Shown here one piece after another: positions 55,042 to 62,553 of a DNA stretch of 64,000 nt. The translations under genes were made by a program, and so were the position numbers. Source of the stretch: Ensifer oleiphilus. GTDB taxonomy: Bacteria > Pseudomonadota > Alphaproteobacteria > Rhizobiales > Rhizobiaceae. Position 1 is the stretch's first letter, and every line of letters begins with the position of its first letter. The stretch covers positions 310,001-374,000 of the forward strand of contig NZ_JABWDU010000004.1 in NCBI RefSeq assembly GCF_013371465.1, written 5' to 3'. The notes beneath the pieces were generated by a model. The model made no database searches, had not been told where the DNA came from, and worked only from the letters and a program-made list of their open reading frames with translations.

Positions 55042-55554
55042 CTACTCGCCGACTTCTTCCAGCTTCTGCGCGAAGATGCCGAAGCCGGCACGGCGATAGG
55101 TGTCCTGCGCCTTGGCGTGATCCCACTCGTCCGTGTGCAGCCAGATGCGCTGGGGCGCACGATCCCAGACGGCGCGCAGTGCTGCATCAAGAAGATACGG
55201 CCCGAGCCTTCTGCCCTGCATGTCGGGGATCAGGCCGAAATGAGTGAGTTCGATATCGGAACTCTCAACACGGTCGAATTCGCAAAGCCCGACGGCACGA
55301 CCGTCGACCCGCAGGGTGTAAACCGCAGTCGATGGGCTGCGTAAAAAGGCGTCGAGTGTATCGGCAGACATACGCAACCGTTGATCCCAACGAAGCGGTT
55401 CGCCGACGGCGCGATAGAGCGAAAGGAATGGCTCTGCCTCCAATCGCTGAAGCGCAAACGCTGCGTTCTCGACGGGCGAGGGCAGCGGCTCGCCGGTCGG
55501 TCGAGTGCGCATTTCCATGTAGGTGACGAGCAATTGAACCATGATCGTTCGCAT
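55042..55554 (-). CDS. GNAT-family N-acetyltransferase
   Basis: The 170-residue product shows the GNAT fold. Motif A for acetyl-CoA is LTHFGLIPDMQGRRLGPYLLDAALRAVW, and the following IWLHTDEWDHAKAQDTYRRAGFGIF is motif B. It acetylates an unknown amine in the cytoplasm. Start 55554 or 55542 (MVQLLVTY) are both possible. It lies next to, and in the same direction as, tRNA-Arg. Confidence 0.82.
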   Translation of the reverse strand: MRTIMVQLLVTYMEMRTRPTGEPLPSPVENAAFALQRLEAEPFLSLYRAVGEPLRWDQRLRMSADTLDAFLRSPSTAVYTLRVDGRAVGLCEFDRVESSDIELTHFGLIPDMQGRRLGPYLLDAALRAVWDRAPQRIWLHTDEWDHAKAQDTYRRAGFGIFAQKLEEVGE

Positions 55555-55619
55555 CGATGCCGGATTGGCGCCAGACCCAACTGGGCGGCCCGTGGTGTGT
55601 TGAGGTATGACAAGAAGAA

Positions 55620-55696
55620 TGGTGATCCCGACGCGATTCGAACGCGTGACCCCCAGATTAGGAATCTGGTGCTCTATCCTGCTGAGCTACGGGACC
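55620..55696 (-). tRNA. tRNA-Arg (anticodon CCU)
   Basis: On the minus strand the 77-base sequence folds as a cloverleaf: acceptor GGTCCCG pairs with CGGGATC, the D arm is GCTCAGC...GAGC, the anticodon stem CCAGA/TCTGG holds the loop TTCCTAA (anticodon CCT at 55660-55662), and the T arm is ACGCG-TTCGAAT-CGCGT. The 3' CCA is encoded. It reads AGG arginine codons. Confidence 0.95.
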
Positions 55697-55960
55697 ACTT
55701 GGATAGCACCCATACAAAAGCAAGGCCTGTTCGCCAAGTGTTTTTGCACGATGTCTTTACGAAAGAGGGCTTGGCGCTTGGATGCTGAGCATCCAGGAGC
55801 GGTCGGATGTTGCCGGTCCGACACGGCTCCGTCCTCTACCGAGGCGTGCCGAAATCGGGGGCTGGCGTTTCCCGTCTTTCGAATGCTAAGCAGTCATTAG
55901 CGCCGGCTTGAGGAGGCAGGCGCTGCTTCATTCGACCTTCACCCAGAGACCTATCCAGAC

Positions 55961-57367: not shown

Positions 57368-58531
57368 TTGCCGCAGGACATTTTCTCGCAATCCGCCACC
57401 CTGTCGACATGGCTGGCCGAAAAAGCCCTGCCGCTCTGGCGCGAAAAGGGCGTCGATGCGACGGGCGGCGGCTTCGTCGAAACCATCGACATGGCAGGCG
57501 AGCCGACGCGCGCCAACCGTCGCGCCCGGGTGCAGCCGCGCCAGGTCTATTGCTTCGCCGAGGCCGGCAGGCGTGGATGGGGCGGCGACTGGAAGAGTGC
57601 CGCCGAGGGCGGGCTTGCCTATTTCGATCGTGTCTATCTGCAGCCGACAGGCTTTTACGGCGCGCTCGCGGATGCAGACGGTCACTTGATCGATGCCTCC
57701 TTCGATCTCTACAATCAGGCTTTCGCGCTATTGGCCTTCGCGTACCTTGCCGAGGTCTTCCCGGATCGAAAGCCCGAGATGATCGAGCGCAGCAATGGTC
57801 TGCGCCAACGTCTCGAAACCCATTGCAAGCATCCGCTCATCGGCTTCGAGGAGGATGATCCGTCGCGGCTGCCGCTCTGCTCCAACCCGCACATGCATCT
57901 GTTCGAAGCGTGCCTTGCCAGCGAAGAGGTGGAAGGCTTCGATCAGGTTGCCTGGTCCAACCTCGCCGACGAGATCGCGCATCTGGCGATGGATCATTTC
58001 ATCGACGGCGATACCGGCGCGCTCAGGGAGTTTTTCGACCACGATTGGGCGCCTTATCCGGGCGACAAGGGTCGTATCGTCGAGCCGGGCCACCTGTTCG
58101 AGTGGGCCTGGCTGCTTCTGCGCTGGGCAGAGCGACGCGGGAGTGCCGAAGCCATTGTCAAGGCTCGGCGGCTGTTTGCCATCGGCGAGGCGCACGGCAT
58201 CTGCCCGACTCGGAATGTCGCGGTCATGACCCTGCTCGACGATTTCTCGGTCGCCGACCCGATCGCCCGGCTCTGGCCGCAGACCGAATGGCTGAAAGCG
58301 TCGGTTCGCTTCGCGGCGCTGACCGACGGGGCGGAGCGCGAGCGCTACCTCGCTTCGGCGGCCCGGGCAGCGGCGGCACTCGGCTTCTTCCTGGAGACGC
58401 CGGTTGCGGGCCTGTGGCGCGACAAGCAGAAGCCGGACGGCATTTTCGTCGAAGAGCCGGCACCGGCGAGCAGTTTCTACCACATCCTTTGCGCCATCTA
58501 TGAAGCCGAGGACTGCCTCGCTCGCCTCTGA
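57368..58531 (+). CDS. AGE-family epimerase/isomerase
   Basis: The 387-residue protein is an alpha6/alpha6 barrel of the acylglucosamine 2-epimerase family, which also holds mannose isomerases (LPLWREKGVDATGGGFVETIDMAGEPTRANRRARVQPRQVYCFAEAGRRGW; SNPHMHLFEACLA; IVEPGHLFEWAWLLLRW). The conserved histidines in NPHMHL and EPGHLFEW fit the catalytic positions. It may interconvert mannose and fructose, followed by the ROK kinase. The start is a TTG (57368), since no ATG is near; it begins just past the UPF0303 stop. Confidence 0.87.
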   Translation: MPQDIFSQSATLSTWLAEKALPLWREKGVDATGGGFVETIDMAGEPTRANRRARVQPRQVYCFAEAGRRGWGGDWKSAAEGGLAYFDRVYLQPTGFYGALADADGHLIDASFDLYNQAFALLAFAYLAEVFPDRKPEMIERSNGLRQRLETHCKHPLIGFEEDDPSRLPLCSNPHMHLFEACLASEEVEGFDQVAWSNLADEIAHLAMDHFIDGDTGALREFFDHDWAPYPGDKGRIVEPGHLFEWAWLLLRWAERRGSAEAIVKARRLFAIGEAHGICPTRNVAVMTLLDDFSVADPIARLWPQTEWLKASVRFAALTDGAERERYLASAARAAAALGFFLETPVAGLWRDKQKPDGIFVEEPAPASSFYHILCAIYEAEDCLARL

Positions 58532-58713
58532 GCTTTTTCTCTGATGGTATGCCCATGGCTCGTCGCACGCGCGGCGGGCCGTTTTCTTTTTGCTCCCTGT
58601 TCATCCGAAAAGCCGAATCGTCTTTCTGCCGCGCCTGTGCGCAGACTGAAACGGTGCACAGATGGGCGCTGAAGCCAGGCTCATCGAGGCAAAATAAGTC
58701 CTTTCATATGTTG

Positions 58714-58733
58714 ACATAAAGATATCTTTATGT
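58714..58733 (+). promoter_or_regulatory. 20-bp perfect palindrome over the metH -35 element
   Basis: ACATAAAGATATCTTTATGT is a perfect palindrome that overlaps a TTGACA -35-like box at 58711-58716. metH starts 47 bases downstream. The layout is that of a repressor operator; the ArsR-family SAH-responsive regulators (SahR) known to control methionine genes in proteobacteria are candidates. Confidence 0.6.
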
Positions 58734-58779
58734 GATTGACTCGGCTATTGTTTGTCGTTTTCAGAACGGGAGATTTCCC

Positions 58780-62553
<3,774 letters not shown>

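Follow-up and report, generated by a model that had tools for sequence, protein, structure and literature searches.

A palindrome upstream of metH in Ensifer oleiphilus is a probable operator of the SahR methionine-cycle regulon

The region upstream of metH, the gene for cobalamin-dependent methionine synthase, carries a perfect 20-bp palindrome in Ensifer oleiphilus. We predict that this palindrome is an operator of the ArsR-type regulator SahR, which is encoded elsewhere in the genome together with metF, and that repression of metH and the other site-bearing genes would be relieved by S-adenosylhomocysteine (SAH). On the strength of sequence comparisons, we give this reading a probability of roughly 94%. 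The palindrome very probably belongs to an already published regulon, which makes the finding right but ordinary.

Results

Position of the palindrome

The window, i.e., the whole stretch of DNA that was analyzed, comprises 64,000 nucleotides. The features at and around the metH upstream region are the following.

58555..58582, plus strand: terminator-like hairpin in the gap separating metH from its upstream neighbor, with a 12-pair stem and a T tail (weak)
58711..58716, plus strand: TTGACA, possible -35 element, suggested by the TTG flank at metH sites of relatives
58714..58733, no strand assigned: putative SahR operator, a 20-bp perfect palindrome, called from the sequence, shuffles, the other methionine-cycle sites in the genome and the metH loci of relatives
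58734..58739, plus strand: GATTGA, hexamer at -10 distance and a poor -10 match, suggested by columns +20/+21 in relatives
58780..62553, plus strand: metH, cobalamin-dependent methionine synthase of 1257 aa, with TIGR02082 and NF007024 above cut-off and five Pfam domains

Read directly from the sequence, the palindrome is ACATAAAGATATCTTTATGT. It starts 66 bases 5' of the metH ATG (58780), ends 46 bases before it and shares its first three bases with the end of TTGACA. The first-pass annotation, made from the letters alone, had described a perfect 20-bp palindrome in exactly this place, overlapping TTGACA, and its coordinates hold. A single match to the pattern was found in the window when up to three mismatches were allowed, against a mean of 0 in 100 dinucleotide-preserving shuffles. 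The start codon, preceded by GGGAGA, opens a frame whose product is MetH (TIGR02082, 1736.7 bits, cut-off 1010.85; NF007024, 2174.2 bits, cut-off 1497), full length according to the profile searches. Terminator-like hairpins numbered two against a shuffle average of 0.7, so the one at 58555-58582 is a tentative assignment. Elsewhere in the window, a tRNA-Arg (CCT) lies at 55620-55696 on the minus strand, and the plus-strand open frame at 55381-55788 that overlaps it is probably spurious.

Probable SahR sites across the genome

In the 6.76-Mb genome, the 20-mer occurs at five places with up to three mismatches, and the reversed-pattern control at none. The 16-base core, searched with up to two mismatches, occurs at six places, again with no control match in the Ensifer oleiphilus genome. 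All six sites precede genes or operons of the methionine/S-adenosylmethionine (SAM) cycle: metH, bmt, metK, ahcY, sahR-metF and metE. Profile matches identify the betaine-homocysteine methyltransferase gene bmt (NF005718, 582.1 bits, cut-off 338), metK (TIGR01034, 442.1 bits, cut-off 309.4) and ahcY (PF05221, 487.9 bits, match from C6:35566), and the portion of metE within its locus (L005) matches PF08267 with 394.2 bits. The ahcY site (core at C6:35399-35414) is weaker and was detected only with the 16-base core. Two places with three mismatches to the core (C30:174259 and C31:285112) were dismissed as chance, the reversed control having yielded four places at the same threshold.

Two side observations concern these loci. 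The genome contains a second, weak ahcY-family match (C26:686108, 37.2 bits). In addition, AAAG precedes the metE, ahcY and bmt sites (L005 1487-1500, L010 1485-1498 and L002 1487-1500); it is extended to ATAAAG at metE and ahcY, where it resembles an extra half-site beside the operator, and is missing from the flanks of the metH and sahR sites.

The regulator

The regulator gene occupies positions 465-1502 of locus L003 on the minus strand. It is the only SahR match at E <= 1e-30 in the genome and lies on contig C22, the window being on C27. The first-pass annotation had noted that the regulator gene is not in the window, which agrees with this location. The protein combines an ArsR-type helix-turn-helix (HTH_5, 43.1 bits; HTH_20) with a methyltransferase domain (Methyltransf_11, 82.2 bits) and scores 75.9 bits against NF033788 (cut-off 55). 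No model named SahR stands among the matching models listed (10 from Pfam and 25 of the 40 from NCBIfam). A search of solved structures at E <= 1e-5 returned 25 sequences, related either to the ArsR part or to the methyltransferase part, and none of them aligned over the whole SahR protein. The protein fits the SahR class, an identity suggested by gene context and by published descriptions (PMC4239095, PMC8877191).

The site of sahR itself differs from the palindrome by one mismatch. Two candidate start codons follow it in the open frame, the ATG of codon 3 after four bases and the ATG of codon 7 after 16. The metF ATG follows the sahR stop codon by two bases; therefore, metF is probably cotranscribed with sahR and most simply read from the sahR site. 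The earlier suggestion to look for the palindrome before metF, metK, ahcY and ArsR-type genes thus led to a site at each, the one at ahcY being weaker and metF being served through the site of the ArsR-type gene in front of it. The regulator class that the annotation had proposed, an ArsR-type protein with a predicted response to SAH, is supported by the domain composition of the protein, its autoregulation site and the set of methionine-cycle sites.

Conservation

We sampled 150 genomes of the order, calling a site at up to three mismatches to the 20-mer and SahR at E <= 1e-30. The site was found in 123 and SahR in 137 of them; 122 genomes have both, 15 only SahR, one only the site and 12 neither. 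Sites are thus present in 122/137 genomes with SahR versus 1/13 without it (Fisher p = 1.2e-9 under an assumption of independent genomes that does not hold here), and the sole genome with a site and no SahR is 56% complete. Single matches are not always meaningful, since the reversed pattern also matched 5/150 genomes of the order and 2/16 of the genus. Inspected as loci, 30 of the order sites, one per genome, fell before sahR (18), metH (3), ahcY (3), metK (1) and bmt (1), a total of 26, with four unassigned. Among the best 30 of the 137 SahR loci, Ensifer oleiphilus included, a site lies near the start with up to three mismatches in 26 and with up to five in all 30; shuffles never went below six.

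At metH, the 300 bases before the match were searched in the best 80 of 578 confirmed matches. A site with up to three mismatches is present in 75 of these 80 loci and perfect in 35, against shuffles that never fell below six mismatches; shuffles here, at the SahR loci and at the metE sites preserved base composition only. The remaining five loci showed no site at this threshold, and in Frigidibacter albus and a Rhodobacteraceae bacterium the metH site is no better than 10 mismatches. The nearest named relatives among these 80 are Sinorhizobium sp. A49 (98%) and Ensifer adhaerens L18 (94%), both over 407 residues. Within the genus, the site stands before metH in all 16 genomes, perfect in 15 and with a single mismatch in one. 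Among the genus matches listed for the 16-base core at up to two mismatches, which run as far as G162, the five places in one genome (G150) precede bmt, metH, metK, sahR and ahcY.

A place in another genome (G156, contig C5) with five mismatches to the 20-mer was set aside; it falls within an open frame and had no match to any of the six regulon proteins. Separately, a site with two mismatches to the 20-mer (G160:C25, L205 442-461) sits beyond the 3' end of an open frame that we take, from reading alone, to be aminotransferase-like; none of the six regulon proteins matches this stretch. In one genus of the order sample, three large genomes with a listed completeness of 100% (G035, G112 and G143) have neither SahR at E <= 1e-30 nor a site with up to three mismatches; the SAM cycle of this lineage may be under another form of control.

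A possible two-signal arrangement at metE

The gene for the B12-independent methionine synthase, metE, was detected at E <= 1e-60 in 10 of the 16 genus genomes. All 10 carry a degenerate SahR-like site before it, with three mismatches in four genomes and four in six (shuffles no better than seven), located 379-385 bases 5' of the MetE start motif, and all 10 have a cobalamin riboswitch at metE. At L005 1501-1763 (G000:C26), the degenerate site is followed after 24 bases by the riboswitch (121.8 bits) and then by metE. Given this 24-base gap, a promoter for the whole aptamer would have to lie over or before the site. It is reasonably likely that metE in this genus is doubly gated, by a SahR operator sensing SAH and then by a riboswitch sensing B12. 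This spare enzyme would be produced only under the combination of high SAH and scarce B12, with high SAH sufficing for metH.

Promoter context and alternative readings

The first-pass annotation had called TTGACA the metH -35 box. The hexamer is present and overlapped by the palindrome as described, and a strict sigma-70 scan of 58500-58850 returned no promoter; its use as a -35 element is plausible but unproven. If TTGACA is the -35 element, the operator exactly fills the 17 bases between it and GATTGA. Flanks were compared at 75 of the 80 metH loci, the five with more than three mismatches having been dropped. TTG stands directly 5' of the palindrome at 72/75 metH sites of named relatives, where column +20 is G in 68/75 and column +21 is A in 69/75. 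In the order sample, which contributed 30 sites at one per genome (four without an assigned gene and outside the counts), the TTG flank occurs at two of three metH sites and at none of the 23 sites before sahR, ahcY, metK or bmt. In these comparisons, TTG therefore tracks metH more closely than it tracks the operator itself. This distribution, expected of a promoter element, argues against a reading in which SahR binds here while the promoter is not TTGACA-17-GATTGA and the operator instead overlaps the transcript start or blocks transcription downstream of another promoter. The argument is weakened by the metK site of Ensifer oleiphilus, which also has the TTG flank. Both the negative promoter scan and the weak -10 in most relatives (the best hexamer at spacers of 15-19 matches at most three of six positions of TATAAT or CTATAT in 65/75) speak for such a displaced promoter, which we regard as unlikely, though well worth keeping in view.

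The remaining alternatives question the regulator or the palindrome itself. Elsewhere in Proteobacteria, methionine genes are under further regulators (PMC4239095), and the site might in principle be used by MetR, by MetJ or by some unrelated dimeric repressor. Such a reading is highly improbable given the palindrome at sahR itself in 26/30 of the best SahR loci and its absence from 12/13 genomes without SahR; moreover, PMC4239095 describes MetJ from six gamma-proteobacterial groups and lists no MetR regulon among its Rhizobiales. A perfect palindrome could also fold as a hairpin and act as an RNA element, e.g., a riboswitch, in the metH leader. This was rejected as extremely improbable: a search of 58500-58900 gave no Rfam match at E <= 1, SAH/SAM riboswitches included, and near-identical letters recur before six separate genes at differing distances. 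As for a functionless chance palindrome, only the general A+T-richness of promoters favors it; with empty shuffles (0 in 100), an empty reversed control in the genome and the site in 16/16 genus genomes, it was discarded as a negligible prospect.

Discussion

Under the preferred reading, a SahR dimer would occupy the 20 bp linking TTGACA to the likely -10 position, keeping RNA polymerase off the metH promoter. Rising SAH would be bound by SahR, probably at its C-terminal methyltransferase-like domain, and the SAH-bound protein would release the DNA. Derepression of metH in Ensifer oleiphilus would then be accompanied by a joint rise of metK, ahcY, bmt, sahR-metF and metE, and SAH would be recycled to methionine and SAM. 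The initial reading of the raw sequence thus picked out what is very probably a genuine operator and had the class of regulator right, and the comparisons assign metH of an Ensifer-type genome to the published SahR regulon. The pairing of a SahR-like site with a B12 riboswitch at metE would be a small addition to that regulon, in the form of a small, testable two-signal switch.

The first description of SahR is that of Novichkov et al. 2014, as cited in PMC4239095 and PMC8877191. In PMC4239095, the alphaproteobacterial regulon, Rhizobiales included, has a 20-bp palindrome and sahR, metH, metK, ahcY and metF as targets. The system found here shares the palindrome length, these targets, the ArsR-family regulator and the order, and shows no difference of substance from that description, in which metE is also a target (in 29% of SahR-bearing genomes within four groups). 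Our match to the published motif draws on the length of the site, its palindromic form, the genes it precedes and the regulator, and not on the letters of the logo (Figure S1 of PMC4239095). SAH-dependent binding by SahR is reported for Desulfovibrio according to PMC4239095 and PMC8877191. A repressor role is predicted for rhizobia, supported by autoregulation in Ensifer aridi, where sahR mutants are reported to be impaired in symbiosis and salt tolerance (PMC8877191).

A near counterpart is SahR of Ensifer aridi LMR001, a close relative for which metH is named as a target. According to PMC8877191, the genome screen in that strain returned no further site, in contrast to the degenerate metE site in 10/10 metE-bearing genomes of the genus here. 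A more remote parallel is SamR of Xanthomonadales, a distant SahR homolog that likewise controls methionine genes from a palindrome but, unlike SahR, does so through one of 24 bp and with another gene set (PMC4239095).
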